Translations under genes and position numbers: made by a program | Assembly: GCF_041381155.1 (NCBI RefSeq) | Contig: NC_091134.1 | Location: forward strand, 4,764,255-4,828,254 | Source of the DNA: Argopecten irradians | Taxonomy: Eukaryota > Mollusca > Bivalvia > Pectinida > Pectinidae | Reading direction: 5' to 3' | DNA: 64,000 nucleotides | Notes under the pieces: generated by a model | What the model was told of the DNA's origin: nothing | The model's database searches: none | The model's input: only the letters and a program-made list of their open reading frames with translations | In this document: positions 2,358-61,085 of the stretch, one piece after another | Layout of the letters: every line of letters starts with the position of its first letter | How positions within the stretch are numbered: position 1 is the first letter of the stretch

Positions 2358-5300
2358 ATGACGCAATTTGGTGAGTACTCCTCATGTGTTTCCATTTCAA
2401 AACAATGGTCTATCAACCATTACTTTCATCTTCAAATGAAAAACTTCTTATTTGCACACAGCCTGATTTGCCACATTTCTCTTAAACACTAAACAGTTTA
2501 TTCATGTGAAATTTATAAAGTTTCAGGAAGGAGCACAAGAAGTGAACAATAGCCTGATCTCAATGTTTTTGTTTACTTCATTTAAAGGTTGGGTCGCAAG
2601 TTGGGCGTCATTAGTTTTTTTGTTTAAAAGTGTAAACAGAAATTCTGAAAGCAGCAACAATACCGTCGGCAGTGTGTGCTTTTATGGTATATAAAAATCG
2701 CATCCGATCCATGTCTATTTACTTGGATATACATATGAAACGTCTTCTTTTTTATAAGTTTTAGACTAAACATTTTTTGCTTCTATTCCTAAAACTCTAT
2801 TACAGGGCTGGTTTTCCTCTTTCGACACGTGTATATCGTTATTCCTGTTGTTGGATTACCCATTAGGTGTGAGATCTCCACGTTACGTTGCTTTATATAT
2901 GTTTTGTTGAAATAAGGTACAGTTCTACATTTTGTTTTTTTGTGTAATTAGTTTATTCTGTTAGACATGTTTTAAACGATAACACTTTGTATCTGTTTTC
3001 ATTTCATATTTTAGAATTAAGGTGCTTAACATTCAGATGTTAAGAGCAAGAACCACGTGATCACATATGAGAAAATTAAAACAAAAACTTAGATTCGTTC
3101 GAATGCTTTGAATCTCTAGATTTTTTTTAGTAATGGATTCTTCGTTGAAATCAAATATATATTTTAGTATTCAAATCAAGGAAATCGTAGGACTTCATGA
3201 ATACTTCAATAAAAGGTGCATACATTTTAAATTTAATATATTGTTGATATTTAGATGATGAACACGTATACAATGTAATATATTGTCTTAATATAGTTCA
3301 TCTATCTCATAAGACAATTTTAACGTTCTTTATATATTTCTTTGTAAATTTCCACGTCCTACACTTATCTCTATAGAGTTTAATTCGAGATATTTGTCTG
3401 GATGTGACCTAGCCGGATCTGACGAGCAACATTAATGAAGAATAGAACGTTTGTTATTCCGAAAAAAAGTTTTCCTTCTCCTTTTCAGGAGTTCATATAA
3501 AATCTGTTTAATTGCCCATTGTTAGTGTTTCGGCTACTGGCTTTGTACGATATCCCTGTAATCTGTATACCTTTCTCACGTTGTTTATTGTCCGTTGTCG
3601 GTGTTTCTGTTGCTGGCTCCGTACTGTATCCCTGTAATCTGTATATGCCATTGTCGTGGTTGTATTATTGCCCGTTGTCGTGTTTCTGTTGCTGGTTCTT
3701 ACTGGTGTATCCCTGTAATCTGTATACCATTGTCAGGTTGTTTATTGCCCGTTGTCGGTGTTTCTGTTGCTGGTTCCTACTGTATCCCTGTAATCTGTAT
3801 ATCATTGTCAGGTTGTTTATTGCCCGTTGTCGGTGTTTCTGTTGCTGGGTTCCTACTGTATATCATTGTCAGGTTGTTTATTGCCGTTGTCGGTGTTTCT
3901 GTTGCTGGTTCCTACTGTATCCCTGTAATCTGTATATCATTGTCAGGTTGTTTATTGCCCGTTGTCGGTGTTTCTGTTGCTGGCTTCCTACTGTATCCCT
4001 GTAATCTGTATATCATTGTCAGGTTGTTTATTGCCCGTTGTCGGTGTTTCTGTTGCTGGCTTCCTACTGTATCCCTGTAATCTGTATACCATTGTCAGGT
4101 TGTTTATTGCCCGTTGTCGGTGTTTCTGTTGCTGGCTTCCTACTGTATCCCTGTAATCTTTATACCATTGTCAAGTTGTTTATTGCCCGTTGTCGGTGTT
4201 TCTGTTGCTGGCTTCCTACTGTATCCCTGTAATCTGTATACCATTGTCAGGTTGTTTATTGCCCGTTGTCGGTGTTTCTGTTGCTGGCTTCCTACTGTAT
4301 CCCTGTAATCTGTATATCATTGTCAGGTTGTTTATTGCCCGTTGTCGGTGTTTCTGTTGCTGGCTTCCTACTGTATCCCTGTAATCTGTATACCATTGTC
4401 AGGTTGTTTATTGCCCGTTGTCGGTGTTTCTGTTGCTGGCTTCCTACTGTATCCCTGTAATCTGTATACCATTGTCAGGTTGTTTATTGCCCGTTGTCGG
4501 TGTTTCTGTTGCTGGCTTCCTACTGTATCCCTGTAATCTGTATACCATTGTCAGGTTGTTTATTGCCCGTTGTCGGTGTTTCTGTTGCTGCTGGCTTCCT
4601 ACTGTATCCCTGTAATCTGTATACCATTGTCAGGTTGTTTATTGCCCGTTGTCGGTGTTTCTGTTGCTGGCTTCCTACTGTATCCCTGTAATCTGTATAC
4701 CATTGTCAGGTTGTTTATTGCCCGTTGTCGGTGTTTCTGTTGCTGGCTTCCTACTGTATCCCTGTAATCTGTATATCATTGTCAGGTTGTTTATTGCCCG
4801 TTGTCGGTGTTTCTGTTGCTGGCTTCCTACTGTATCCCTGTAATCTGTATACCATTGTCAGGTTGTTTATTGCCCGTTGTCGGTGTTTCTGTTGCTGGCT
4901 TCCTACTGTATCCCTGTAATCTGTTATCATACTGTATCCTGTATCTGTATACATTGTCAGTGTTTATTGCCCGTTGTCGGTGTTTCTGTTGCTGGCTCCT
5001 ACTGTATCCCTGTAATCTGTATACCATTGTCAGGTTGTTTATTGCCCGTTGTCGGTGTTTCTGTTGCTGGCTCCCTACTGTATCCCTGTAATCTGTATAC
5101 CATTGTCAGGTTGTTTATTGCCCGTTGTCGGTGTTTCTGTTGCTGGCTTCCTACTGTATCCCTGTAATCTGTATACCATTGTCAAGTTGTTTATTGCCCG
5201 TTGTCGGTGTTTCTGTTGCTATCTTCCTACTGTATCTCTGTAATCTTTATACCATTGTCAAGTTGTTTATTGCCCGTTGTCGGTGTTTCTGTTGCTGGCT

Positions 5301-8300
5301 TCCTACTGTATCCCTGTAATCTGTATACCATTGTCAGGTTGTTTATTGCCCGTTGTCGGTGTTTCTGTTGCTGGCTTCCTACTGTATCCCTGTAATCTGT
5401 ATACCATTGTCAGGTTGTTTATTGCCCGTTGTCGGTGTTTCTGTTGCTGGCTCCGTACTGTATCCCTGTAATCTGTATACCATTGTCAGGTTGTTTATTG
5501 CCCGTTGTCGGTGTTTCTGTTGCTGGCTTCCTACTGTATCCCTGTAATCTGTATACCATTGTCAGGTTGTTTATTGCCCGTTGTCGGTGTTTCTGTTGCT
5601 GGCTTCCTACTGTATCCCTGTAATCTGTATACCATTGTCAGGTTGTTTATTGCCCGTTGTCGGTGTTTCTGTTGCTGGCTCCGTACTGTATCCCTGTAAT
5701 CTGTATATCATTGTCAGGTTGTTTATTGCCCGTTGTCGGTGTTTCTGTTGCTGGCTTCCTACTGTATCCCTGTAATCTGTATACCATTGTCAGGTTGTTT
5801 ATTGCCCGTTGTCGGTGTTTCTGTTGCTGGCTTCCTACTGTATCCCTGTAATCTGTATATCATTGTCAGGTTGTTTATTGCCCGTTGTCGGTGTTTCTGT
5901 TGCTGGCTCCTACTGTATCTCTGTAATCTGTATACCATTGTCAAGTTGTTTATTGCCCGTTGTCGGTGTTTCTGTTGCTGGCTTCCTACTGTATCCCTGT
6001 AATCTGTATACCATTGTCAGGTTGTTTATTGTCCGTTGTCGGTGTTTCTGTTGCTGGCTCCGTACTGTATCCCTGTAATCTGTATACCATTGTCAGGTTG
6101 TTTATTGCCCGTTGTCGGTGTTTCTGTTGCTGGCTTCCTACTGTATCCCTGTAATCTGTATACCATTGTCAGGTTGTTTATTGCCCGTTGTCGGTGTTTC
6201 TGTTGCTGGCTCCTACTGTATCCCTGTAATCTGTATACCATTGTCAGGTTGTTTATTGCCCGTTGTCGGTGTTTCTGTTGCTGGCTCCCTACTGTATCCC
6301 TGTAATCTGTATACCATTGTCAGGTTGTTTATTGCCCGTTGTCGGTGTTTCTGTTGCTGGCTTCCTACTGTATCCCTGTAATCTGTATATCATTGTCAGG
6401 TTGTTTATTGCCCGTTGTCGGTGTTTCTGTTGCTGGCTTCCTACTGTATCCCTGTAATCTGTATACCATTGTCAGGTTGTTTATTGCCCGTTGTCGGTGT
6501 TTCTGTTGCTGGCTTCCTACTGTATCCCTGTAATCTGTATATCATTGTCAGGTTGTTTATTGCCCGTTGTCGGTGTTTCTGTTGCTGGCCTCCTACTGTA
6601 TCCCTGTAATCTGTATACCATTGTCAGGTTGTTTATTGCCCGTTGTCGGTGTTTCTGTTGCTGGCTTCCTACTGTATCCCTGTAATCTGTATATCATTGT
6701 CAGGTTGTTTATTGCCCGTTGTCGGTGTTTCTGTTGCTGGCTTCCTACTGTATCCCTGTAATCTGTATATCATTGTCAGGTTGTTTATTGCCCGTTGTCG
6801 GTGTTTCTGTTGCTGGCTTCCTACTGTATCCCTGTAATCTGTATATCATTGTCAGGTTGTTTATTGCCCGTTGTCGGTGTTTCTGTTGCTGGCTTCCTAC
6901 TGTATCCCTGTAATCTGTATATCATTGTCAGGTTGTTTATTGCCCGTTGTCGGTGTTTCTGTTGCTGGCTTCCTACTGTATCCCTGTAATCTGTATATCA
7001 TTGTCAGGTTGTTTATTGCCCGTTGTCGGTGTTTCTGTTGCTGGCTTCCTACTGTATCCCTGTAATCTGTATACCATTGTCAGGTTGTTTATTGCCCTGT
7101 CGGTGTTTTCGGTGTTTCTGTTGCTGGCTCCCTACTGTATCCCTGTAATCTGTATATCATTGTCAGGTTGTTTATTGCCCGTTGTCGGTGTTTCTGTTGC
7201 TGGCTTCGTACTGTATCCCTGTAATCTGTATATCATTGTCAGGTTGTTTATTGCCCGTTGTCGGTGTTTCTGTTTTGCTGGCTCCTACTGTATCCCTGTA
7301 ATCTGTATATCATTGTCAGGTTGTTTATTGCCCGTTGTCGGTGTTTCTGTTGCTGGCTCCCTACTGTATCCCTGTAATCTGTATATCATTGTCAGGTTGT
7401 TTATTGCCCGTTGTCGGTGTTTCTGTTGCTGGCTCCTACTGTATCCCTGTAATCTGTATATCATTGTCAGGTTGTTTATTGCCCGTTGTCGGTGTTTCTG
7501 TTGCTGGCTCCCTACTGTATCCCTGTAATCTGTATATCATTGTCAGGTTGTTTATTGCCCGTTGTCGGTGTTTCTGTTGCTGGCTCCCTACTGTATCCCT
7601 GTAATCTGTATATCATTGTCAGGTTGTTTATTGCCCGTTGTCGGTGTTTCTGTTGCTGGCTTCCTACTGTATCCCTGTAATCTGTATACCATTGTCAGGT
7701 TGTTTATTGCCCGTTGTCGGTGTTTCTGTTGCTGGCTTCCTACTGTATCCCTGTAATCTGTATACCATTGTCAGGTTGTTTATTGCCCGTTGTCGGTGTT
7801 TCTGTTGCTGGCTTCGTACTGTATCCCTGTAATCTGTATATCATTGTCAGGTTGTTTATTGCCCGTTGTCGGTGTTTCTGTTGCTGGCTTCGTACTGTAT
7901 CCCTGTAATCTGTATATCATTGTCAGGTTGTTTATTGTCCGTTGTCGGTGTTTCTGTTGCTGGCTCCGTACTGTATCCCTGTAATCTGTATACCATTGTC
8001 AGGTTGTTTATTGCCCGTTGTCGGTGTTTCTGTTGCTGGCTTCCTACTGTATCCCTGTAATCTGTATACCATTGTCAAGTTGTTTATTGCCCGTTGTCGG
8101 TGTTTCTGTTGCTGGCTTCCTACTGTATCCCTGTAATCTGTATATCATTGTCAGATTGTTTATTGCCCGTTGTCGGTGTTTCTGTTGCTGGCTTCCTACT
8201 GTATCCCTGTAATCTGTATACCATTATCAGGTTGTTTATTGCCCGTTGTCGGTGTTTCTGTTGCTGGCTTCCTACTGTATCCCTGTAATCTGTATACCAT

Positions 8301-11300
8301 TGTCAGGTTGTTTATTGCCCGTTGTCGGTGTTTCTGTTGCTGGCTTCCTACTGTATCCCTGTAATCTGTATACCATTGTCAGGTTGTTTATTGCCCGTTG
8401 TCGGTGTTTCTGTTGCTGGCTCCGTACTGTATCCCTGTAATCTGTATACCATTGTCAGGTTGTTTATTGTCCGCTTTCGGTGTTTCTGTTGCTGGCTCCC
8501 GTACGGTATCCCTGTAATCTGTAAACCATTTTCACGTTACTTATGTCCCGTTGTCGGTGTTTCTGTTGCTGGCTCCCTACTGTATCCCTGTAATCTGTAT
8601 ACCATTATCAGGTTGTTTATTGCCCATTGTCGGTGTTTCTGTTGCTGGCTCCCTACTGTATCCCTGTAGTCTGTATATCATTGTCAGGTTGTTTTAGCAG
8701 GACGTTAATGGATGACAGGTTGCTCTTTCAAAGGAGTGTGGAGATTCAAAACCCTCAAACTAATTACAAAAGTAGAACATTTAGCCGTCTTCATACGATT
8801 AACCTCAATTTCTATTTCCCATATTGGTGAAAAGTGTGGAGAAACAAACTTACATGGTTACTTTACATTGTTTTCCCAGCATTACCTAGACAGAGCCGTG
8901 TCCTTCAAGAGCTTTATGATATACACTGTAACAACCTTCGCTCGTTACACACCGGAAGTTTGACAGACAGTGAGGCTAACATTGACCTCAAGTTCACACT
9001 GAAGGCCCTCGAAAGGCAACCGTCTTCAGGTATTGATATCTAGAGTAATTAATATTTCAATTAATTTAGTTATCAATTATTAAGTTATTATAATTACCAA
9101 TCTTTGAGGTATTTAGTAACAAAATCTATCACAGAAATTGATTTAATCTCATACAATATGGCGGTTTTCAATGAATATTTTGCCAGCCCGGCCTTCCAAA
9201 CAGATGAAGACTATGATGAGGATGAAGCGCAACCGACTTCAACAACTCGTGGTATCTGTGTGTATTTACAGTCTATTGCTGAGTCTGTGTCTCTACCAGG
9301 TGGTCACTATCTACCAGCAACTGCATAAACAGTAAGAGATCACGTGTGTCTCTATACAGGTAAGGATACACACCGTGTAACATGTAACTGTCCTAATACA
9401 GGTAAGGATACACCGTGTAACTGTCCTAATACAGGTAAGGATACACCGTGTAACTGTCCTAATACAGGTAAGGATACACTGTGTAACTGTCCTAATACAG
9501 GTAAGGATACACTGTGTAACTGTCCTAATACAGGTAAGGATACACCGTGTAACTGTCCTAATACAGGTAAGGATACACCGTGTAACTGTCCTAATACAGG
9601 TAAGGATACACCGTGTAACTGTCCTAATACAGGTAAGGATACACTGTGTAACTGTCCTAATACAGGTAAGGATACACTGTGTAACTGTCCTAATACAGAT
9701 AAGGATACACCTGAGGTGTAACTGTATCCTAAATACACATGGCCTAACAGGTAAGGATACACCGTGTAACTGTCCTAAACAGGTAAGTACACCGTGTAAC
9801 TTCCTAATACAGGTAAGGATACACAATGTCTAATAAGGTGTACACCTGTATGTCCTAATACAGGTAAGGATACACCGTGTAATGTCCTAATACAGGTAAG
9901 GATACACTGTACTGTCCGTATGTACACGTGTACTGTCCTAATACAGGTAAGGATACACCTGTAACTGTCCTAATACATACACTGTATGCCTATACAGGTA
10001 AGGATACACCGTGTAACTGTCCTAATACAGGTAAGGATACACCGTGTAACTGTCCTAATACAGGTAAGGATACACCGTGTAACTGTCCTAATACAGGTAA
10101 GGATACACCGTGTAACTGTCCTAATACAGGTAAGGATACACCGTGTAACTGTCCTAATACAGGTAAGGATACACTGTGTAACTGTCCTAATACAGGTAAG
10201 GATACACAGTGTAACTGTCCTAATACAGGTAAGGATACACTGTGTAACTGTCCTAATACAGGTAAGGATACACTGTGTAACTGTCCTAATACAGGTAAGG
10301 ATACACTGTGTAACTGTCCTAATACAGGTAAGGATACACAGTGTAACTGTCCTAATAAGGTTAGGATACACAGTGTAACTGTCCTAATACAAGTAAGGAT
10401 ACACCGTGTAACTGTCCTTATACAGATAAGGATACAATGTAACTGTCCTATTACAGGTAAGGATATACCATGTATTTGTCCTAATCAAAATAAAGAAACT
10501 TCCCGTAGCATGTATTCACTATCACCAGAAAGTATAATGATACACGTATATCTGTGGTACGGAAGGGACTTTGTATTTCATTCTGATGACGGAGAATATG
10601 GTGAACCTGCATTTTTGTACCCGAAAAGGGTACAAACGCTAAATACGAAAAAAATCCATTCGAAAAGCAAAACGTCCTCAATGTAAATATTAAGCTTACT
10701 GGCTTGTGCGAACATTTATATCCGAAATTGTCAAACCAATCCCTTGGAAAGTGACCATGTGTATATTACTTCCACTGAGTGCAGTTTTGTCATTCTAAAG
10801 ATGGCGTATTTTGTGAGATGTAAGTATAAGTTCGTGGCTTTGATTATGAAATCAAATCTACCGTGATCCTAAAGGTTAATCTTGTGCTTTGTTATAACAG
10901 GAATCCCATCATTACGGACAAATCTCACAACTCCGTGAGGTGCTATCAGATATCCACATGGAACTTCAAGCAACCATTAAAAACAAGTCCATCGCCGAAT
11001 TCCGTCTGCAGGCAGATCGGTCGATCGCAAGACTGGATCACGATTTCCAGCATCCATCATTCATCTTGGGGACCCTTATAAGATCTCGGGTAAGATTTGT
11101 CCACGTTCTGTCTGAAATCAGACTGGAAGCAGACTACTGGCAAAACCTACCCGTTCTTCTTTCAAAGTACAATCTATTGACACAGTTCATGCATGACAAC
11201 TTAGTTGTGTTAACACGACGGAGTCATTTCACCATGGATGCTTCCTTTATCGAAATGGACAAAGCATTCGAAGTGGTGGCATTGCTTGAGAAAGTTGATA

Positions 11301-14300
11301 TCTATAATAATTTAGATTGCTATATGACTATCAGTGATAATGAAACTAGCATTCGTAGCACGTACAGTTATGCCATGTTTCAGAATATTAACACAATCAA
11401 TGCTCACATTACGGTACTATCTCTACGTGGAGCGACCGTGCTTACAAATACCGAATGGAACTTTCTGAAATCACTGACACTAACTTCAAGATTTCTCCCT
11501 GACCAAGATTTCATTAACATACATAGACTTCATTCACGAAACAGTAGTTTGTGTGATGACACTAATGACAAGTTGAAAACTATTATTGATCATGTACTGA
11601 TGACCTCAAAGAGGCTACTATCAAGCCTGAACAACAGGATTCACGCCAGAAGTAGCGATGCTGTTCAGGAGATCGGGATATACACCATGCTCTTGCTACT
11701 TTGTGTCATCCTGTTTGGAATCGTGTGTGTTCTTCACCACGGAATTATCAATAGGCTGTTAACCTTTGAGGACATCGAGGATACCATAAGTAAGCAGTTG
11801 AGTGAAGAACAAGATCGAGTGACTTCAATTTTACATGATGCAATCCCTCTTGAGTACATAGAGGCTGTGAATGGTATCAACATAGTCAACAATGGCGATA
11901 GGACAAAGCCTGCAGGCAATATCAAAAAGAGCAAAATCCGTCGTTTGAAAAGTTCGATCGAATCCTTGACAAAATCAAGTAGATCTGCCTCTGTAGAACC
12001 AGAAACATACCCCCTTCCCGTAGAGGACACAGTAATTCCTGCTAATCTACCTCTGCTCAAATTATCAAAGCCTGATGTCATGTATGGGGTATTTGACAGC
12101 GCGACGCTATTCATGTGTGACTTTATCCATCTGAATGACCTGGTGGCCTTGTACGAGCCTGACCAGCTTGTAAACCTGGTCACATGTCTCATCCAGATCC
12201 TGGAGGCGCGCACCAAACTCTACAACGTTCATGTTCTGTGTAAAAATATCAACACCTTCACTGTCATATCTGGTGAGTAGATTTCTTCGTCTTACTGTAA
12301 CGCTGTGTTTTCTCCAGCTAGAGTAAACGAGTATTGGTGTTACGGAGACTGTATAATTTGATCTCTGTGGTGACTGTCACCGACAAGCTTTGTTTTTATG
12401 AAATAGGTAGTCATGATGTATGGATCTATAGTGTCATTTAAGGAGGGTATGAGGAAAAGGAATTTTCTAATTGATTTTATTTCATGGAAGATTTGAGTAC
12501 ATCTTTTCAATAAAAGACCCATATATACAATAGTATAATAGTATAGCAGGATGGCTAAGTCGTGAATTAAGTATCCACATTGTAGACGGTTAAGAGCAAT
12601 ATTAGGTGCCATAAATATCAGCAAAGCCATATCATAATGTGGTACAGCTAAATTAGGTGTTTACAGTCAATCAGTTTCGTTGTTTTGCTATAAAACTTAC
12701 ATGCGATTACAAAATAGCCATCAATGCTCCATATTGTTTCACTTTTACATTTTATAGTTTTTATATCTTTTTTAATGTCTTGTTGATCATCGGATACCGT
12801 GTAGCTCCGACTAGCGTTCAGACACTGCCTTCGCTTCTTTCCCGTTACAAAGGATTTAACGCAAATATCATTTGTTATGATGTAAATTTTATAAACATTT
12901 CTTACAGGCCTTCAATGTCAACACGCTCTTCGACATGTAACCGAGATCGCTAATATGGCACTGGATATCCGCGCATCATGTAGTGATCTAGAGATTGATG
13001 TACTTCCGGATTCAAAACTACGCATGCGTATCAGCATTCACACGTGTATGTTCCATTAAATGCTATTTGATCCAAACCTGGCATAATGATATGCAACACA
13101 GAAAAACCTAAAACCTCCCATTTATTTAATGGTTATTTCAAGCATTAAATAGAGAGATTCGTGTGTGTTTTCGCTCCATAACATGAAAATGTATCTAAAA
13201 GGAGGGAGGTCATGACCGATAAGTTTTATTTTTTATTAAAGATATTTAAAGGTTATATGGCCATGAAGTTAAGGTCAGGTCAGGGAGGTTAATTTTCTGT
13301 TTGTTTCATTTTAGACGAAACCGGTGGGCACTTGTATTATTTCAATTATTTTTTCCATCATCAATCAAAAACCCTTGACCTAAGAGTTAATCGAAAAAAT
13401 ATGCATACTTATCAAGAAAAAAACCAGTGTTTGGTTTCGTCAATATTATACCAAATAAAAAACATTGTCGTCTTCCTTAACTCGAAATGGTCTCTGTCCT
13501 GACCTTAACTTCTTTTCTTATCTTGCTCACCTAAAGCTAACCCCCCGATATCAGTAAACATATCGGTCATGGCCAATATAGGACCCAAATTGACACCCCG
13601 CCTTTCCGAAATTTGGGGAAACTATTTTAGATGAGGCGTTTTAAACAGCAGAGCCAATGTATTACGCAAAGAAACGATCGCAAACATTTTAAAGCCAGTG
13701 TAAAATGCCTGTAATATATACACTATTGATTTATTATCAATTTTAAGAGTTTTATCTTTATTTTTGCATAACCAAGATGTTATAACATAACCATTAAATT
13801 TACGACATCACTTCCATCCTTTTCATGTTTAAGCTGATTGTGTTTATAAACTGACGTCACATCCGGAACCTCGTTTCCACATATACGGTGACATTGTTGA
13901 TATCACGATGGAGTTGCAGAAAAACTGCACGGGTAAGTATGTCTAAAAAGTGTGCTGTTTTTGTTCCTTTGTTTGTGTTTGTGTCTTTCAAATGGACGAT
14001 TTGGTTAACGAATATTTGTGTAAGCATTACTTTGAATATGTTGATTTGCATCATGCATGAAAATAAAACAAAAAACTAATCCATGTCAAAAACAATTATA
14101 ACTAAAACGTTATGTTCCTCTATGAATTATTTACTCTCTGGAACGCCTTGTCCTGCTTTTTCGGTAGCTAATCGCACTACATGTATTTATTTGACTTTGG
14201 GTTTACAATGTAGCTTATACTTTTCGATTATCACCACGTTACTTCATACAGCAAACAGAATCCATATAAGTGATGAAGTTGGAACCATACTTCGAAAAGA

Positions 14301-24700: not shown

Positions 24701-27700
24701 TGTGTTAATTAATATTCCCCAACCAATCAAATATTGGTGTGTAGGATATGCTAGCCAAAGGTGCGCCATCATACATATGCTAGAACACCCAATGAATGTT
24801 ACACCCTAATGCATATCAAAAATAAGAAAACCAATGCTTATATTTATATAATAATTCCCGTTATCAAAAGAAAACAAATAAAAAGTTAAGTATGAAAATA
24901 AAAATGTATACGTCTGCATAGAGTAAAATATCATTTTGTCATTTGGTGGAACAGCCGATGATTTGGCGGGAAAGAGTGAGTTCTAGCAGTTTCTTGTGTG
25001 TTACCATGGACTAGCGACTAAACAATAACAGCAGTTGAAATAGTCCCATCGATAAAACAGGATATACAATTATAAATACATCACCTCAATCCATTTCATA
25101 TATCTTGATTAGAAAATATTCTCATATTGATCAATTTTTGGAATACCCGGTATGTTATTTAAAGCCCAGTCTTTTCTTTATCCCTTGAACGCTGATGAAG
25201 GTATTGGTACGCCAGAGCCTAACTGACAATGTTGATACTGGAAATTATCATACTTAAGGCTTAGTAGGAATATATAGGTACTGTTCAGTGGCAATGTTAA
25301 TATAAAGAAATGTCGGAAGGTTGAGACTGACCACAAATCTCTAGAATATTGAAAACATCACTATAGTGTGGCTTGATTATTTTTGGAGTAGGAAGAGATA
25401 ATCTATTATAGAACTCTGCTGGGAAAGTATTATCAACAACTTCGGCCCTGTGGCCAGTCTAGGTTTAAGATAGGTAAATCATATTCCATACTGAAATACT
25501 AAACTGGGTCAAAAACACATTATAGTTTAGTACTGTAAACTAACTTTTATTCGTGGATGTTAAATTTCGCGATTTTTTTTTCAAAACAAGTTCGTGGAAA
25601 TTAACATTCGCGGACCAGAATACATATAGTTCTACTTTCATTTGATACTATCATTCTAAGTAATATCGATGATAATTGGCTGAGATGACTCTGTAGGGGC
25701 ATCAACATACATTTACCCTGACAACAAAATAATAAGGTGGGTGGTCAACCTATCAGATAAGATCTTGAATTCAGAGAAGAAATGGGTATTGGAGAGAGGA
25801 CTTAATTTTGCGGTAAGTCCCAATAAATTACCCATTGTCGATTTTATTACGGGCATAGAGACAGCATGAAAATACATAGGTCTTAACTCGAAGGCAGCTT
25901 CTCACTAATGTACAGACTGTGTTAAGTTCTTGAAAAACACCAAACTCCATAAGTCTAACATAGCAGAAGATGAACAATATGCCCTAGCATCACTTAAGGC
26001 CGACGTGAACAACCTTACATTACCAGCTGATAAGGGACGGGCTGCTGTGATCATGCCCAAGTCTATGTACCAGGAGAAGATCGGGATACTCCTTAGTAAT
26101 GAAAACACCTACAATCATCTTCAGAAGGATCCTACTGCTAGATATACCACCAAACTAGTACAGCTTCTTAGGTCTCATAAGGACCAAGGACTTCTGACTA
26201 TTGGCCAGTATAGGTAATTACATCCTATATCCACGGACGTCCCTAAGTCCTATGGTCTCCCTAAAGTACACAAGGAAGCTGTTCGTCTCAGACCGATTGT
26301 AGCGTCTATATGCTTTATCACTTATAACAAAGCTAGGTTCCTGGCCAAAATCCTATCTCCACTGGTAGGCCGTATAGCTCACCACATCAAGAACAGTACT
26401 GAACTTGTGAAAACACTATAACAGTATAAGCTGAGCCCAGATGAGTCTTTAGTGTCATACGATGTGACTGCCCTGTTCACCAGTGTACCAGTACAGGAGA
26501 GCGTACTATCATCCGACAGAGACTCGAGATGGATCAGACACTCGCCGAACGAACGATACTATCCCCCCAACAGATCACAGAGCTCCTGGAAGTTTGCTTT
26601 AGTACCACTTACTATGTAGTTGATGGTAAAATATACCAACAAACTGAAGGTGCGGCTATGGGCTCCCCAGTCAGCCCAATCGTAGTCAATCTCTTCATTC
26701 TCACTTCGAGGAATCGGCTCTGAGGACCTTCCAGGACAGCTCAATGTATTGGGGGAGATACGTGAATGATACCTTAGCCATAATACATAGCAATGTGGTA
26801 GACGATTTCACTGACCATCTTAATAATTGTCACTCAGCCATAAAATTCACTATCGAGAGGATGAAAGATAACTACATTCTAGTACTAGACACGTACATTC
26901 GGCTTCGTGACGATGGTTCGCTTGTGTTCAGTGTGAACCGTAAACCCACACATACCGACCAATATCTCCAATTCGACAGCCATCAACCGCTAGAACACAA
27001 GCTGTGTGTTATAAGAACTCTGACCCATATAGCCAACTCCAAATGCTCCACTGATCAGGCCAAAACGCAGGAAGAAGATAACATGAAGGAAATTTTCAGT
27101 GTTTCGGGCTGTATTAGGTGGGCGTGGGACCTCCCCAGCAGCAGGACCAAGACCACTGAACTGGCAACTAGCGCCAACCAGCCAAGTCTCTACCATACAT
27201 CGGAGGTATTTCGGAGGCCATCAATCGCAAAATCTGCTAAGAGAGAGTTACAGTACACACCAAGCCCCATAATACCATTCAGGGGATGCTGGTAGAACCC
27301 GAAGACAAAATCATCACCATGAACAAGTCAGGTGCTTTGTACAAAATAGCATGCATGTGCTGAATGTTCATCAACATATGTGGAGGGGGGGACGGAAAGT
27401 ACTACAGAGATTCGTCTCCTGTTATGGTTATGATATGGCTAGGCGGATGATTATGTAATAAGGTCGTACGAGTTATCTCACTTCAGTGTAATATTATGTA
27501 ATCCGGAATTTGGATGAACCGGAAGTGTTGTTTTTGTAAGTTAGATAAAACAGAGAAAAAAAGATGGAAGCTGGTGGCAACGTGTTTTGTGATATCCTCT
27601 CAGCCAAACGAGTAAAACCTAACACTAATTCCCTTCCCCCGTTGCCCGCTACACTCCTGTTGGGGTCCATATGAGAGACCACTCCCACGTTTTCACAACA

Positions 27701-39202: not shown

Positions 39203-42200
39203 ATGGCGCAAGGTAAGATCGAATATTATCAACGTTTGGATTCTGATAATGATAAACTTTATGTAATTTGTGTAGTTGAATTGCATAAAGTACATGCATG
39301 TTTTTGATTTTGTTCAACACAGATATAAATAATCCAATCCTTAATTTGTACCAGACCCACAATTTAGCTATATATTAATGCTTATTTTGGCACGCATGTA
39401 TCAATATGTATAAACATACACGTTTATGCTGCATCCAATTATCCGAATATTCTAAAAACGAAATCTTGTGTTGGTATTTGCTTTTGTTTTTTGTTTTGTA
39501 TATGCTTTTTTTCTGTCGCGAAAACGTGTAGACGTATTGATTTAACGAGCATGATTTTTGAGATTTCATTTCATTATCAGTACCCATAATTTAGTATACT
39601 CTATTTGCAGATCCGATACTTTTTTCAGTGGCCTTAGTACTGTATATATTTCATGCTATGTACAACCCTAAGCGGATTTCTGTTAGAAATTAAGAATATT
39701 CTGTCCGTTTTCGTGATGGCTATGTTTCTAATACACATAAGGATATTTTTAGTCAATAGAAGTCAATGTTGCGTTCAAATAAGCATAAGCTCAATAATGT
39801 ATGAATATAAACCCATGGTAGTAATAAATCATCCGGATCTGCTAGATTATAACCGTATTTCCGCGATAATATCCGATGAGGTTTGGATGGGACCGGACTA
39901 CTTCAAGTTCACTCTTCGATAAAATGTTGTGTCATATGATACTATAGATAAACTTACTTAGTTTACATTTTACTTTTTCATAGATGACATATTCTCTTTG
40001 ATTACATATTAAAGTAAACGTCGTTTTCGTTCTGATTATGGCCTCAAGACTTAGGTGGCACAGATATATTATGTTTGTAAGTGGCCTAATGTATAGAAAG
40101 AAAGAAGTTGAAAATTTACAATGAAAATTCATGTTATTTTAATTTTAATATGTATTTAATATCAAAAAGGAATATGTGATCAAGTATTGTTACATTCATT
40201 ATTCATAACAACAAAATGAACCGCTTGTCTAGACTACAACCAAGTGTTTTCACTGAATCACCCCAATATAGGGACATCTGCTTGGAGAGCGATTCGGGCA
40301 ACTTCTTGAAACGATGCTTTCAATACATTAACAGATTAAATACAGATTCCTGGAAAAAGAAACTTAATCCAAAACCTTATCATCAGCTTTATCCTTCACA
40401 TTCAAAATGCACACACCATGTAAACACTTTTACCATCATCCGTATAATAAAATGAAGTTATGACTATGAAGAATTTAATTTTCGGATGTATATTGCGTAC
40501 GTAGACCGATACAGCCATGACTTACAATCAACAGCTCATCTGTCATGCCATCAATAGGCAGTAACATTAACTTCTCGGGTGAAAATCAAATATGGCGGCT
40601 AGCTTCGCATCGGACCGCATCACTACTCTGTCAATGATACCTGGACGTTCCGCCTTGGTTATCTCCATTGTTTTCGAATTGGACATTACTGATACACGAT
40701 TAATTTTTAAGATGACGATACTTATTTCTAAAATATCTGAAAGGTGTCATTGTTATATTTCTAATCAATCGGAAGCTATAAACTTTCAACAATCGGAACT
40801 ATATCTTTGGTCATCCGAACCTCTTTAGTTACCCTACTTAGCGATTAACGCTATTTTAAAGACGAGTAACATGCCGAATAGTTATTATAAAAATCAATAT
40901 ATTTTGAAAATTAAAAAGTTACAAATAGATATGTTTATTAATGAAAGAGGGATACCTGTGTACTTCTATTTACCAATGTAAATTGTCTTAAATATTCTCA
41001 TACATACCACAACTAATGATAGATAGAGGCAAAACCCCATAGTCAAATGTATTTCTTCATGAATTAATGCTCTTTTATCTTGTGTTCTATATGCGTAATT
41101 TGAAACAATCATCTGAATTCTTTTAAGATCTTGTGACAGAACCGAAATCCAAAGATGATGCCCGGGATTTCTGCCATATCAGTGTTGGGGGCAATATGTA
41201 CGAGATCAGCAAAACAGTGATGAAGTCAGTCCCAGGATCCCGACTGTACCGGATAGCCAAGGACACGAGTCGCGGGAACTTCTTTGAGCGTCCCAGGAGA
41301 GCTTTTGAGTCAATTCTGGCCTTTCACCAGACAGGACAGCTACATATGCCTGCCGACTTATGCCCCGGCGCCTTTAGGCAGGAAATGAAATTCTGGGGTG
41401 TAAATCCTGACGTCATGGAGAACTGTTGCTATCATCGTTATGTCACGTTCGCACGAGACCAGCAAATACTGACTGGTTTCCTACAGCAAACCATTCAGAC
41501 GGAGGAGAAATTGGAGGCTTTGCTGTCGGATAGGTCCTCCCAGATCGCTCGGGCACGTGCCCGGGTATGGACCATATTGGATAACAAGGATAACTCCGTG
41601 ATAACCAAGGTAACAACTTTATTGTGTATCACGTGTTTGTTTTACGCACCCATGACGTAATGAAAAAAGCTTAATTTAACAATTGTATCTGTTGAAATTT
41701 TACAAGCCTACAATAGAAAGTTAATTATCAAGACAATAATACATTATTACTCTCCTTAATTCTGGAATACAAAAGTATAAAAGGTGAAAGTATCAAGAAA
41801 GTACACAGATGTTTAATATACATACGCATTGATTAGGTATTAAAAATATCAATGTTTATTGTGGTATTGTTTTTGTGCAATTGTGCTATGACTACTTCTA
41901 TTGATAGCCTTTTGATTTTTTAATCTTGCTTCCTATCTGGTATCCGTTACCTGTTAGATAAATATGTATCATATGAAGCTGATATTACGAAACGTAACGC
42001 ATCAGGACGAAAACAATCCTAACTGGCAAGAAATAATTGAAGGAATATTTTACATGCACACTTCGAACTAATTCCATTCCGTTGTGACTAAACATATTAC
42101 GAGAAAACCGCTCATTTTCATTAACAGTTTCTAACACACAAACTATAGTTTAAAATATATTTAAATGATGCCATGAGATAGAATTATTCTCTAAAAATGA

Positions 42201-44434
42201 TATTAAAAATGCATGTATTTTTACATAATTGCAAAAGTAAAAGAAAAAAGTCTTTGTTCAATACAAGTATTAATTATTTTTTCATTTACGCATGTATGTA
42301 GCAGAAAACTATAGATAATCTAAGGAAAAAAAATTAAGCACTGGATTACAAGCACGCAGTCATTATCTTAAATTCGCCTGCTGATGGAATGAGAGATGCC
42401 AAAATAAGCAAAACACAAATAAATTTAGACGGTTTGTCCAATGATTTGCACCTGCTCTTATGATAAGGTGATGCATGAGTTCTATAAGAATGACATTCGT
42501 CTTCTCAAATGTTTAGTGTTTGTAATAGTTATTTTCTTATCTGGCGTTTTATGAAATTTTCCGTAAAGAATTTTTTTCTCCAATTTCAGATCTATTTCGG
42601 CGTAGCCACCGTTTTCATCTTGATCGCAATCTTCGCCACTGCCCTGGGAACACTGACGTATCCTGTCAGAAATATCACCGTCGAAAACTTCGAGATGAAT
42701 ATCAACAACACCATTGGCCTTGGAGCGAATACCATTGACGTGGATACGCCAAAACATTTCTCATTCAATCGCAGAGTAAAACGAGACGAGGCTGAATACA
42801 GGGGAACGCCTTCTCATGAGGACAGCTCTGGTCATCAGCTAATGCAGAGACCCGGAGTATTGGTTAATAGCTTAACTGTTGACAAACACAAAGATCGCGA
42901 GGATGTTCGGAGATCTGGTGATGATTTACATAAAAGTGGAATACAGGTCTCAGACGTTGAATCCTCTTTACAAAACCATATCTTACAAAGAAATCATGAC
43001 ACGGATCAAAAAGAGGGCAAACAAATTCATCAAATGGAACAAAATGCAAAACATCAACAAGACTATTCTAAAGACCTCTCAAGTGATATTCTGAAAAAAA
43101 TTCAAGACACGACACAGACAAAGGATTTGCAAGTTAAAATCATGGAAACTAAAGATGAATCCCTTTCACAACTTAAAATTAGCAAGAGGTCTTTGCCTAG
43201 AGAAGATGTTCATGATGGTGTTCCTAAAGGAAAGATTAAGATAATCCACAGTGCTATTGATGTGAATGATATTGTAGTTAAGAGAGGTAATGACGAAAGA
43301 GACAAGTCATCTATTGCGTACGGCATTCCTTTTTCCAAAAGCCCATCCATTGGGGGTCAAAGTATGTCGATGAGAAATGAGAAATCACAGGACTTTAATC
43401 ACATCCGCATGAAACGGAGTATAGCTGATGTCAACAACATATCCGGAGTGAATGAAAATATGACTGCTTACGAAACGGACAACACGGGACAAACTTCCCA
43501 GGTTACTACTGAGACAACGGACTCTATTGTGAATGTCACGGTTCCTGATACTTTCGCCAGTTACGCTAATAGCAACGTCAAGCACAGGAATAGAGGCAAC
43601 CCCACGTTCGATGCAGGTGAGAAAGTGAACGCTGCTGACAATGATACGGAAGACGACACAGGAAATGGTCAAAGAAACGCAGAACAAGTGAAAGAAATAA
43701 TCGACAAAATACTTCCGAATCCTCCATCTTCAAAGATCCTTACGATCGAGGCAGCAGCGAACGAAGAACACTTTACCTATATGTATATAGAATATGCCAC
43801 AAACATCTTCTTCACATGTGAACTGATTCTTCGTCTGATTTTCTGTCCGCGTTCGATGAAATATGTGTTTTCGTTTCAAAATGTGATCGATATTCTCGTC
43901 CTAGCGGCTGTCTACTCCAGAAGCCTCGTCACCTATTTGGACATCAGTGAATATCAGGACAACATCGATATCCTTTTATATCTCCAGATGTTACGGGTGC
44001 TCAGGCTGCGCCGACTACTGGACAACGTTACGGCCTACAAAGTCCTCTGTTACTCGATGAAAGTTGGAAAAAACGATATCTTTCTCATATTGCTGTATGT
44101 CTTCTTTGGAGTGCTGTTTTTCTCGAATTTCATCTATTTTTTTGAGCGAAACGAAGATTTTCCCAGCATTCCCGAAGCTTGGTGGTGGAGCATGGTTACT
44201 ATAACAACCGTTGGGTATGGAGACATGGTACCGAAAACATTCATCGGAAAAATCATTGGATCAGTGTGTGCTCTCTCCGGGGTTTTCATGTTCTCTCTGA
44301 TCATTCCAATATTCGTCAATACGTTTTTGTCGATTTATCAATATGCCGAGGTCCGGGATAGGAACGATGCCCTAGTATACAACAACAATGATAAGAAACA
44401 GAAAATGAGTAATATCAAGGAACAGAGTGTTTAA
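39203..44434 (+). CDS. divergent voltage-gated potassium channel with giant S1-S2 loop
   Basis: Three coding exons: 39203-39212 (MAQ plus one base), 41128-41609 and 42590-44434, in matching phases; about 778 residues. Residues about 15-120 form a T1 tetramerisation domain (HISVGGNMYEISK) with the zinc site of non-Shaker Kv subunits, H-x5-C-x20-CC. S1 is at about 165-186, S2 560-582, S4 near 625-643, S5 660-683, pore with TVGYGD at 704-709, S6 to about 747. The extracellular S1-S2 loop is about 370 residues instead of the usual few dozen, hydrophilic, with six or so N-glycosylation sites and four dibasic sites, two of furin type (RVKR, RMKR). S4 has Arg at three canonical steps and then Asp; S6 keeps only one Pro of the PxP motif. 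It likely forms K+-selective channels at the plasma membrane, alone or with other Kv subunits. The single large third exon makes the loop part of one uninterrupted frame. Confidence 0.9.
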
Positions 44435-55700: not shown

Positions 55701-58700
55701 GACGGTTCATTTCGCTGTTTTACCGAGTACAATGTAGGGTAGAGATAGTCAACTACTGAGTGGTAATTAGGACGACGCCGGAAGCATCAAAGGAAAACTT
55801 GATATTTGATTTATATTTTTTAGTTGTTCATGAAATGACGATAAGTGCTCAATTAACGGTAAGATAATATTTTTCAATGTTTGTAGCATGATGATTTGAT
55901 AAAACTTCTAACTTCTAGCAATTATAACCCTACCTCAGGTAGCCGAGCTGTTTTGATCACTAGAATATTAGCACCGGGAAAATCCTCATTCATTTGTATA
56001 AGCCTTTCGTGAAATCCAAGGTTCTCGTATAAATCTGAAGAAGATAACACATTCTGATGATAATTGGATTAATCTAGTCTCATTGGCATAATGAATGACA
56101 CATTTCTATGGACATCAACTAGAGACACTAATATCTTGCTAATAATGAATGGAAATAGGATGTTATGGTCGGCAAACGGGAGAAAATGTGTTGTTTTTTT
56201 TAATATAATACCAAGTCGGATGACAACAACAAGCTATTCATTCTCCGAAGTAAACAAAACAATCAACCTTAAAGTGAATATGTCGGGCAAAGAAAACCAG
56301 TAGTGAGCCAGGGAGGACGTTTTAGAATTTCCATTAGAGTGTGTTTTAGAAGATGTACTGTGTCTCGTCGTCGTAGTGAAGATAATATCAAACAATTCTG
56401 AAACCCTTCATACCTGATAGATAGAGTGTGTTTTAGAAGATGTACTGTCTCTCGTCGTAGTGAAGATAATATCAAACAATTCTGAACCCTTCATACCTGA
56501 TAGAGTGTGTTTTAGAAGATGTACTGTCTCTCGTCGTAGTGAAGATAATATCAAACAATTCTGAGACCCTTCATACCTGATAGAGTGTGTTTTAGAAGAT
56601 GTACTGTCTCTCGTCGTAGTGAAGATAATATCAAACAATTCTGAGACCCTTCATACCTGATAGAGTGTGTTTTAGAAGATGTACTGTCTCTCGTCATAGT
56701 GAAGATAATATCAAACAATTCTGAAACCCTTTCATACCTGATAGAGTGTGTTTTAGAAGATGTACTGTCTCTCGTCGTAGTGAAGATAATATCAAACAAT
56801 TCTGAGACCCTTCATACCTGATAGAGTGTGTTTTAGAAGATGTTCTGTCTCTCGTCGTAGTGAAGATAATATCAAACAATTCTGAGACCCTTCATACCTG
56901 ATAGAGTGTGTTTTAGAAGATGTACTGTCTCTCGTCGTAGTGAAGATAATATCAAACAATTCTGAGACCCTTCATACCTGATAGAGTGTGTTTTAGAAGA
57001 TGTACTGTCTCTCGTCGTAGTGAAGATAATATCAAACAATTCTGAGACCCTTCATACCTGATAGAGTGTGTTTTAGAAGATGTACTGTCTCTCGTCGTAG
57101 TGAAGATAATATCAAACAATTCTGAAACCCTTCATACCTGATAGAGTGTGTTTTAGAAGATGTACTGTCTCTCGTCGTAGTGAAGATAATATCAAACAAT
57201 TCTGAAACCCTTCATACCTGATAGAGTGTGTTTTAGAAGATGTACTGTCTCTCGTCGTAGTGAAGATAATATCAAACAATTCTGAAACCCTTCATACCTG
57301 ATAGAGTGTGTTTTAGAAGATGTACTGTCTCTCGTCGTAGTGAAGATAATATCAAACAATTCTGAGACCCTTCATACCTGATAGAGTGTGTTTTAGAAGA
57401 TGTACTGTCTCTCGTCGTAGTGAAGATAATATCAAACAATTCTGAAACCCTTCATACCTGATAGAGTGTGTTTTAGAAGATGTACTGTCTCTCGTCGTAG
57501 TGAAGATAATATCAAACAATTCTGAGACCCTTCATACCTGATAGAGTGTGTTTTAGAAGATGTACTGTCTCTCGTCGTAGTGAAGATAATATCAAACAAT
57601 TCTGAGACCCTTCATACCTGATAGAGTGTGTTTTAGAAGATGTACTGTCTCTCGTCGTAGTGAAGATAATATCAAACAATTCTGAAACCCTTCATACCTG
57701 ATAGAGTGTGTTTTAGAAGATGTACTGTCTCTCGTCGTAGTGAAGATAATATCAAACAATTCTGAACCTCATACTTGGTTTTAAGTGTAGTCTTCGCGTA
57801 GTGAAGAAATATCAAAATTCTGAAACCCTTCATACCTGATAGAGTGTGTTTTAGAAGATGTACTGTCTCTCATCGTAGTGAAGATAATATCAAACAATTC
57901 TGAAACCTTTCATACCTGATATAACTATTGGTATATCTTGAGTCTTTCTTTATTGTTTGCTTCATCGTTATTTACGTCATTTCCATGAATGGCCACTGGA
58001 TGACCTGTATCATTTCAGTGATCAAAGATATCCGGACTATTTGGAGAATACGTATTACTATGAGACCCTCACGGCTTCACCGCCTAGTGTTCGGCAGCCC
58101 TATAGTATACCCATCCTCGGTGCCAGGTGTACCACATTGGGCCGCATTTGCTTTGATTCTAATAAATATTTCTAAAGCTTTCCACAAATGAACAATCGTG
58201 TTCAAGTTATCGGCAACCATGTGAAAGTGAACCAAAAAACAAGAAAATTATAGATATCGGCCTGGATATGAACTCAAGCAAGGCACATGTAAGCTAGCCT
58301 TCACATGCATAGATACAGGACATTGCTTTAGCAGACGACTATTACGTAAGCTTGGAAACAAGCATATCATATGAAACATGTATAATAAACAAACTTAAAC
58401 AATGAACGCATTTAACAAAATTGAAAGTAATCACGCATTTAAAGTTATGTAGAAATTGCGAGTAGTACTAAATATATCATAATTTATCAAGAACATACAT
58501 CATTTGCGTCCTTGAAGTCTACCAAATTATACCCGAGGTATGTTTTGAGGCACAAAATTCTATTGCATTCGCCGGGTTTTAGGCGGAGCCATTCAAATGA
58601 CCATGATTTAGGTAATGAATAATTCATGAGACCACGGCAAATGCAGCCTATGATCCCAGGGGTTTATAAGCGATAGTGTGGCGTACATCTGGGGCCTTAT

Positions 58701-58997: not shown

Positions 58998-60539
58998 CTA
59001 AGAAGCAGAAGGCATTAAATTATATAAAATATAACAAAAAAATGATTGGTGTGTAGAACAGTTGAGTTAAAACTTCGTTATCAGTCAATCTGTGTGTTTT
59101 ATCAGACTGTAAACACTACACAATGTCAAGGTCATTTCTAGTTTGATATATCGCATGCATTATACGATAACATGATAAAAAATTTCATTTTCATATACAT
59201 GTAAATATTGTAAATATTGAATTTATGCGACCAACTAGTACATATATGTACTGTACATATTAATAATACAACAGGAAAAAAACATGCAGGTAATGACACT
59301 TTATACATAGGCTTATAATATTGTGTTTAACAAATGTCTTATCTCGAAGATCTTAACACTATAACAATTTACTAATGGCATCCCTTATTATATCTTTCGG
59401 ATCTCTTCTATATCCAACACCACAGAGAATCGTCAATGGTATCTTATCACCATAATCTATTGTGCTCCTGTGTCCAATAATATCTGAAAGTTTTATCAGC
59501 TGTAGAAATGGCCACTAGATATAGTTAACTCTGATGAAATGGTTATCCCAACCGAAAGCTCTCCTTAACGAACTTGACGTCTTTGAAACCTAGGCAATTA
59601 CGACATCTGTAGCCACTGTATTTAACCTCAATTTGCCAAGCATTTTCCGTAGAAAACTAAATTAAAAAATACTGTTTGGTTAACAGTGTTTAGAAACCTC
59701 ATTGGTATTTGCCTAAAATAGCATAACATTTTGACCGGGAATAAATTGAGAAACCTAATCGTTCATTTTCCTGATAGAGTTTAGTTATGTTACGGGTATA
59801 AGGATATTTAAGAAAATATAAAGATTTGTATGTGTGCGTATTTAATTTATTCTTTCTACCAGTATCTGTCTTTGGTATACCGTTGAGGCCCACAGAAAAT
59901 CTGACATGTCACTAACACTTCCGGAGATAATATCTTCCCAGCGTATCCACTGTCTGTGTCTCTCGTCTTCCATGGTTCCTTGGTGGGTACATTTCTATTA
60001 ATCGCTTCCTTGTTGGTGTGGTGATCCCTGTATCAAAAGTCGAGGGATCTTTTAATCGCTCGGCTATAGCATACATGTTTCCTCTTTCTTTACTGCCAAT
60101 GTCCATAACTCAAGGACATCCTAAACTAAAGAAATTATATCAATATTGATGAAACATTAGCGTCAGAGTCCTATCTTTGAGCTGAGGGTTATACTTGTTC
60201 TTGTCATCCGAGACGGTCTTGCCTTTTGCGATTGCCATTTAACAAGTATCTACATGTTTTCTGGTGGATACGGTGACACCCAAAGCCGAAGACCGAGGGT
60301 CCTATCACATTCGAGGTTTGATAAATCACAGTATCCACCTTAAAACAGGCTGGTATGTGGTTTATTATATATATATAACATGTGATTTCTTCGACTACGT
60401 GCATTTCATCTATCTTCCCTTGGTAGTGAGTAGCTAGCCCCTCTCCCCGATGTTGAGTGGTCCTTTTGATAAATCCCGAAAAAATCACCACATTATACTT
60501 TTTACTGACTAGATGAAATTTTAAGCACTTTACAAACAC
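58998..60539. other. upstream region of PhyH, no clear gene
   Basis: A minus-strand frame at 59912-60106 has coding-like composition but no recognisable domain; it might be part of an upstream gene. Otherwise AT-rich DNA with nothing recognised. Confidence 0.35.
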
Positions 60540-61085
60540 AAATATTAGCTTCTACCATACCCCCTGCAAATATTAGCTTCTACCATACCCCCTGCAAATA
60601 TTAGCTTCTACCATACCCCCTGCAAATATTAGCTTCTACCATACCCCCTGCAAATATTAGCTTCTCATACCATATTAGCTTCTACCCCCCTGCAAATATT
60701 AGCTTCTACCATACCCCCTGCAAATATTAGCTTCTACCATACCCCCTGCAAATATTAGCTTCTACCATACCCCCTGCAAATATTAGCTTCTACCATACCC
60801 CCTGCAAATATTAGCTTCTACCATACCCCCTGTAAATATTAGCTTCTACCATACCCCCTGCAAATATTAGCTTCTACCATACCCCCTGCAAATATTAGCT
60901 TCTACCATACCCCCTGTAAATATTAGCTCTACCATACCCGAATTACTCTACCATACCCCCTGCAAATATTAGCTTCTACTACCCCTACCCCCTGCAAATA
61001 TTAGCTTCTACCATACCCCCTGCAAATATTAGCTTCTACCATACCCCCTGCAAATATTAGCTTCTACCATACCCCTGCGGCAAAG
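60540..61085. repeat. 28-bp minisatellite, about 19 copies
   Basis: Units of 28 bp with AATATTAGCTTCTACCATAC and CCCCTG. Two short disordered patches lie near 60665 and 60930. No open frame of note. Confidence 0.95.

Follow-up and report, generated by a model that had tools for sequence, protein, structure and literature searches.

A divergent Kv-family gene of Argopecten irradians with a 372-residue S1-S2 loop and a possible furin-type excision of its middle segment

Introduction

Proteolysis of an extracellular tract has been described as a means of controlling the activity of ENaC, which, as outlined in PMC8791634, opens once cuts at two basic sites have released an inhibitory tract. The tract in the alpha and gamma subunits of ENaC is bounded by paired basic sites; the Kv-family gene reported here likewise has paired basic motifs, and removal of the tract between them is proposed by analogy. 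ENaC is nevertheless unrelated to a Kv channel in fold and ion selectivity, and its removable tract comprises a few dozen residues, as against 211 in the present gene. Large extracellular or lumenal loops between TMD1 and TMD2 are, according to PMC12799467, a feature of the six-segment channels TRPML and TRPP, which shows that channels of this architecture can accommodate a large S1-S2 domain. The TRPML/TRPP loop is a folded domain in another channel family, whereas the loop described below has no cysteines and a negative fold index. In TRPML1 this loop is also the place of a proteolytic cut; proteolytic cleavage of TRPML1 was reportedly described by Kiselyov in 2005.

Within the Kv family, Shaw/Kv3-type channels resemble the present gene in the T1 match, the six-segment core and the TTVGYGD filter. 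It differs, however, in having an S1-S2 loop of 372 residues, where the 26 Kv genes of our tree that lie outside its clade have 11-73, Leu and Gln at the first two S4 positions that are usually basic, and IIP in S6 in place of PxP. Searches of an open-access library returned no paper on a Kv channel whose S1-S2 region is cut by furin or is unusually long, as judged by titles and the beginnings of abstracts, with subscription journals outside the scope of the search.

Gene structure and channel core

The window, i.e., the whole stretch of 64,000 nucleotides that was analyzed, corresponds to 4.76-4.83 Mb of contig C1 in a genome of 846 Mb. The channel gene lies on the forward strand, and its exons and core features are as follows.

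41140-41609, + strand: exon encoding a Shaw-like T1 tetramerisation domain (BTB_2 match, alignment with 3kvt; AG before, GT after)
42590-44434, + strand: single exon encoding S1 to S6 with the long S1-S2 loop, the C-terminal tail and the stop codon (Ion_trans match, open frame; AG at 42588-42589)
42590-42655, + strand: S1 transmembrane segment (translation, paralogue alignment)
43973-44035, + strand: S4 of reduced charge (compared with the Shaker paralogue L017)
44204-44224, + strand: potassium selectivity filter TTVGYGD, intact (translation, alignment)
44291-44326, + strand: annotated stretch within the S1-S6 exon (alignment)

The T1 exon matched the Pfam profile BTB_2 (E 9.9e-16), and the nearest solved structure was the Shaw T1 domain 3kvt (E 2e-16), with which the residues align in what we take to be the zinc-site pattern H...C...CC of non-Shaker T1 domains. 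An intron of 980 bases separates this exon from the S1-S6 exon, and the two join in phase 0; the T1 exon is the most 5' exon identified, an upstream exon with the start codon not having been found. The S1-S6 exon is 1845 bases long, holds 614 codons without a stop inside an enclosing open frame of 646 amino acids, and matched Ion_trans (E 2.4e-26) over profile positions 20-240, with S1 preceding the matched part. The matches to Ion_trans and BTB_2 confirm a Kv-type gene, and we conclude that its product is a divergent alpha subunit of the Kv family whose T1 domain is Shaw-like; the pore exon on its own gave no assignment to one named Kv subfamily. At the regularly spaced positions that are basic in the S4 of L017, the gene has Leu and Gln at the first two, Arg at the next three and Asp at the last, and S6 reads IIP in place of PxP, a motif that is usual in the Kv family without being universal. 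Having neither the first PxP proline nor the first two S4 basic residues, the subunit may not gate normally on its own.

Elsewhere in the window, large tandem arrays occupy 3505-10485 (a 76-base unit repeated 63 times, and a 33-base unit in about 10 and 15 copies, whose arrays lack stops in several reading frames of either strand), and further arrays lie at 56335-57765 and 60539-61075 (80-base units in 17.8 copies at 98% match, and 28-base units). Two other open frames, as judged by eye, resemble part of a receptor guanylate cyclase of the NIT type (10898-12280, 460 amino acids) and part of a retroelement reverse transcriptase (26648-27295, 215 amino acids), and neither had a Pfam match at E 0.001.

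The S1-S2 loop and its reading frame

The loop and the motifs within it are laid out as follows.

42656-43771, + strand: S1-S2 extracellular loop, 372 residues, no cysteine (translation)
42656-42784, + strand: proximal loop flank, 43 residues, two N-glycosylation sequons, RVKR at its end (translation, composition)
42773-42784, + strand: furin-type site RVKR, followed by DEAE (translation)
42785-43417, + strand: furin-bounded middle segment, 211 residues including the distal RMKR, no sequons (composition tests)
43184-43189, + strand: dibasic site KR (ISKR, followed by SLPR) (translation)
43280-43285, + strand: dibasic site KR (VVKR, followed by GNDE) (translation)
43406-43417, + strand: furin-type site RMKR, followed by SIAD (translation)
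43418-43771, + strand: distal loop flank, 118 residues, Thr/Asn-rich, four sequons, net charge -12 (composition)

These results agree with the original prediction, which described an S1-S2 loop of about 370 residues, far beyond the normal length, encoded together with S1 to S6 in one exon: translation gave 372 residues, about ten times what is usual, all within that exon. The two furin-type sites and the two dibasic KR sites that it named are present at 42773 and 43406 and at 43184 and 43280, respectively, and its several N-glycosylation sites were counted as six sequons. The segments between the sites, put at about 131, 28 and 40 residues, measured 133, 30 and 40, so that the third length agrees and the others differ slightly. 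Additional basic pairs occur at 42908 (RR) and 43094 (KK).

The loop is very likely real coding sequence. No stop interrupts its frame over 372 codons, as against 17 and 39 stops in the other two forward frames, and second-order Markov simulation of the loop gave 18.6 expected stops, with none of 2000 simulated sequences open. Its composition (GC 0.41, AT skew 0.25) also differs from that of the neighboring intron (GC 0.29, AT skew 0.02). The codon score is uninformative on the reading frame: the values per codon were 0.181 in frame, 0.128 in another forward frame and 0.172 in a reverse frame, the middle third of the loop scored 0.071, and the first third scored lower than two other frames.

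The charge-hydropathy index was -0.087 for the whole loop and -0.111 for the middle tract, and this index, taken by itself, would suggest that the tract is open to a convertase. A single-sequence AlphaFold2 model, made with no alignment, had a mean pLDDT of 41 and a pTM of 0.23, and this low-quality model placed a helix within the 211-residue tract, where the pLDDT averaged over blocks was as high as 73. Protein (E up to 10) and DNA searches of the genome for a second copy or relative of the loop returned only the loop itself among the best candidates, which are all that the search scores, and very short motifs may escape it.

A clade of long-loop paralogues

The S1-S6 exon had 43 matches in the genome, and a tree of S2-S6 was built from an alignment of 35 of them. 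Five matches (L034, L046, L047, L050 and L053) were excluded as split or failing the motif filter and, read by eye, have no loop above about 65 residues; the broken or short matches C1:31845893 (two stops), C12:26819673 and C2:51653744 were also excluded and are omitted from the loop counts. The window gene forms an inner clade with L002-L007 (support 100/99), which, together with L008 and L009, makes a nine-gene clade (99/99). In this tree of 35, all eight loops longer than 100 residues fall within the nine-gene clade, with lengths of 373 (window gene, in alignment columns), 298 (L004), 230, 212, 134 (L002), 131, 116 (L009, outside the inner seven) and 107, the remaining member, L008, having 48; the loops of the 26 genes outside the clade range from 11 to 73 residues. 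As eight of the nine clade genes have long loops, the loop length is not peculiar to the window gene: a long S1-S2 loop is a character of the clade, of which the window gene is the extreme. The clade also has Gln at the second S4 arginine position (9/9, compared with 0/26 other genes) and has lost the first of the two prolines of PxP in S6 (9/9, compared with 7/26). The closest paralogue of the window gene is L002, with 64% identity in S2-S6.

The loops themselves are seldom alike. When each pair of clade loops was aligned and scored against 200 shuffles, only 4 of 36 pairs exceeded every shuffle (L003-L004, L003-L005, L006-L007 and L008-L009), and none of the eight comparisons with the window loop did so. 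The best matches of the window loop were to L002 (22 residues adjoining S2) and to L009 (diffuse, over 110 residues), each reached by 2% of shuffles, uncorrected. L003 and L004 are 81% identical in S2-S6, yet their loops align poorly, and cysteines number six, eight and five in the loops of L003, L004 and L005, compared with none in the window gene. Sequence comparison indicates that the clade loops have grown in eight members and are diverging fast. The paralogue loops were dropped as evidence of conserved sites, since no comparison with the window loop was above all shuffles. The motif RX[KR]R occurs twice in the window loop and once in that of L009 (REKR), and is absent from the other 33 of the 35 loops, including those of L002 and L003-L008.

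Several further features of these paralogues were observed. L009 (C1:4160410-4164300) shares its contig with the window gene, at a distance of about 0.64 Mb, and the REKR in its 116-residue loop is followed by DGND. The loop of L004 (C1:31831397-31835005) seems, when read by eye, to hold two copies of a cysteine-rich module (CGTCRTCNAT and CDPCRSCNAT), both of them followed by a KVEHT stretch, and because of this module pair the clade loops may also enlarge through internal duplication. The region C1:31824000-31854500 (L022-L025, L054) is a cluster of long-loop genes, with L003, L004 and L005 and the broken match at 31845893, which has two stop codons. L046 (C9:22176500-22181500) is a Kv-like pore exon with TTVGCGD instead of TTVGYGD as its filter.

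The genome holds about 40 Kv-family pore exons; in most bilaterian genomes examined, vertebrates apart, little growth of the Kv family is described in PMC9989356. Among the 35 aligned exons, PxP is full in 8, lacks the first proline in 16 and lacks the second in 11. Vertebrate silent KvS subunits (Kv5, Kv6, Kv8 and Kv9) have, as presented in PMC3440756, a broken PxP from which the second proline is absent, and this is the pattern of the 11 exons; the clade of the window gene differs from KvS in that it lacks the first proline and retains the second.

Frequency of basic motifs, sequons and composition of the loop

The two RXKR motifs of the window loop compare with 0.08 expected from its composition, and only 0.28% of 20000 composition shuffles reach two; for the broader RX[KR]R, the count of two compares with 0.13 expected (0.7% of shuffles). 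By contrast, the four KR pairs are not unusual, with 1.55 expected and 5.9% of shuffles reaching four. Across the 35 S1-S2 loops RX[KR]R occurs three times, whereas 0.44 occurrences are expected (1% of shuffles); this count is not independent, because it includes the two motifs of the window loop from which the question arose. In the cytosolic tails of these genes, which are out of the reach of furin, there is one such motif against 1.8 expected.

All six sequons lie in the flanks and none in the 211-residue tract. Shuffling of the whole loop gave 6831 sequences that had six or more sequons, and only 37 of these leave the tract interval free of them; from the tract's own composition, however, 1.2 sequons are expected and none is found in 27% of shuffles, and the absence is explained by the tract being poor in Asn. 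Asn accounts for 8 of 211 residues in the tract and 23 of 161 in the flanks (Fisher 0.0005, uncorrected), and Thr for 7 and 19, whereas Ser numbers 25 in the tract and 9 in the flanks, and the tract is also richer in Lys and Gln; six such single-residue tests were made, all uncorrected. When the loop was split exactly at the furin pair, the gain in composition was matched by none of 1000 shuffles, the residue groups having been chosen by hand, and the best single change point falls right after the distal RMKR. With the cuts left free, the best two-cut gain was reached by 58 of 1000 shuffles and the best one-cut gain by 155 of 500, and the proximal cut of the best two-cut split lies 16 residues before the end of RVKR. 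A division of the loop at the furin pair is suggestive but not decisive, and hinges on the furin sites being taken as given.

Alternative readings of the loop

That part of the loop is spliced out, or that the loop is a retained intron, so that a short-loop protein results, we consider very improbable. A consensus scan of the exon did find one good donor-like site, at 43617 (CAGGTGAGA), with an acceptor-like site downstream in the loop at 43735, and the codon score fails to single out the coding frame; but splicing from 43617 to 43735 would delete 119 bases and break the frame, the only later acceptor-like site that preserves the frame (44111) would cost S2 to S4, and no donor-like site near the loop start passed the scan. 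The loop is also unlike the adjacent intron in composition and is open over its 372 codons, and S1, loop and S2-S6 share one open frame in all seven inner-clade genes. The grounds for rejecting a retained intron are the frame, the composition and the gene structure of the paralogues, and the codon score played no part in this. The gene might also be a decaying copy whose loop reflects relaxed constraint, as the missing first exon, the replacement of two basic residues at the beginning of the S4 series and the loss of the first PxP proline could suggest; we hold this to be extremely unlikely, given 614 codons without a stop, an intact selectivity filter and intact splice sites, 64% identity to L002 in S2-S6, and an S4 second-position Gln and first-proline loss that are common to all nine clade genes.

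The remaining alternatives concern what becomes of the loop. It may be an uncut, disordered, glycosylated extension of a fast-evolving Kv clade, under weak constraint and with incidental basic motifs, which we regard as a real possibility, if somewhat below an even prospect. The distribution of loops of 107-373 residues over eight of nine clade genes, the rarity of alike loop pairs (4/36, none including the window gene), the lack of RX[KR]R in six of the seven other long loops and the negative fold index of -0.087 all speak for it; what speaks against it is the improbability of two RXKR motifs from composition, the agreement of the composition change with the furin sites when these are taken as given, and the established behavior of furin, which as a rule cuts any RXKR site that it can reach on the lumenal side. 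The original prediction had read the loop as prohormone-like, which, if cut in the secretory pathway, would release peptides or leave a clipped subunit held by other contacts. Its paired furin-type sites in a long lumenal loop are real, and the segment that they bound, free of sequons and different in composition, fits excision, but the length is common to the clade. The prohormone version, in which peptides of about 133, 30 and 40 residues would act as signals, we consider improbable, as the loop has neither amidation glycines nor repeated peptide units. Delimiting sites are there (RVKR, KR, KR and RMKR, i.e., four KR in a lumenal stretch, two of them inside furin motifs), although KR pairs in this number are expected often enough by chance. 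Rather than being part of a soluble secreted precursor, the segment is flanked by S1 and S2 in a channel exon, with a cytosolic T1 domain ahead of S1; no amidation Gly precedes any of the four KR, and there is no cysteine. The repeats in the exon are three short two-copy DNA families only, likely due to chance, and no similar sequence was found elsewhere in the genome among the best candidates scored, where very short motifs may escape. Amidation Gly or repeated peptides are not found in all prohormones. Sorting to the regulated pathway seems unlikely for a channel, and a constitutive furin cut would not be expected to bring peptides to regulated granules.

Proposed excision of the middle tract

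The reading that we favor, and place just short of an even prospect, is that a furin-type convertase cuts both sites and excises the 211-residue tract to leave a two-chain Kv subunit, most likely in maturation or regulation. Excision is favored because two RXKR motifs are improbable, the sequons all lie in the flanks and the composition split, when the sites are taken as given, matches the furin pair. Since S1-S2 is lumenal in Kv channels, the loop would pass through the trans-Golgi network, the site of furin-type convertases, where RVKR-DEAE and RMKR-SIAD, both of which conform to the known furin rule, may be cut. Cutting at RVKR and RMKR in the late secretory pathway would free the tract and give one chain of T1-S1 with a 43-residue stub and a second of a 118-residue stub with S2-S6. 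Both stubs carry sequons and so may be glycosylated, and the chains would stay joined through T1 assembly and transmembrane packing. The likely use of such a cut would be in channel maturation or regulation, by ridding the subunit of a stretch that impedes its gating, trafficking or contacts, and not in the supply of a peptide hormone; ENaC would be the nearest working analogue. Without the tract the loop would comprise 161 residues, near the 134 of the L002 loop, and the convertase P domain has seven matches in the genome, of which one contains an internal stop codon.

A channel can survive interruption of its polypeptide, because Kv11.1 split between voltage sensor and pore functions as two polypeptides, as described in PMC5805800; the split in Kv11.1 is at S4-S5, whereas the break proposed here is at S1-S2. 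Points against excision include the lack of furin motifs in the closest paralogue L002 and in L003-L008, the low Asn content that accounts for the missing sequons of the tract, the shuffles that equal the composition gain when the cuts are free, and the helix that the low-quality model drew within the tract.

Implications

The wider claim, of a Kv channel that is furin-matured in its S1-S2 loop, is made of two chains and has its activity set by proteolysis as well as by voltage, we put forward tentatively and as clearly short of an even prospect. If true, the ENaC principle of activation by excision would enter the Kv family. Even without cleavage, a Kv clade with loops of up to 373 residues and altered S4 and S6 represents an unusual radiation of potassium-channel subunits.
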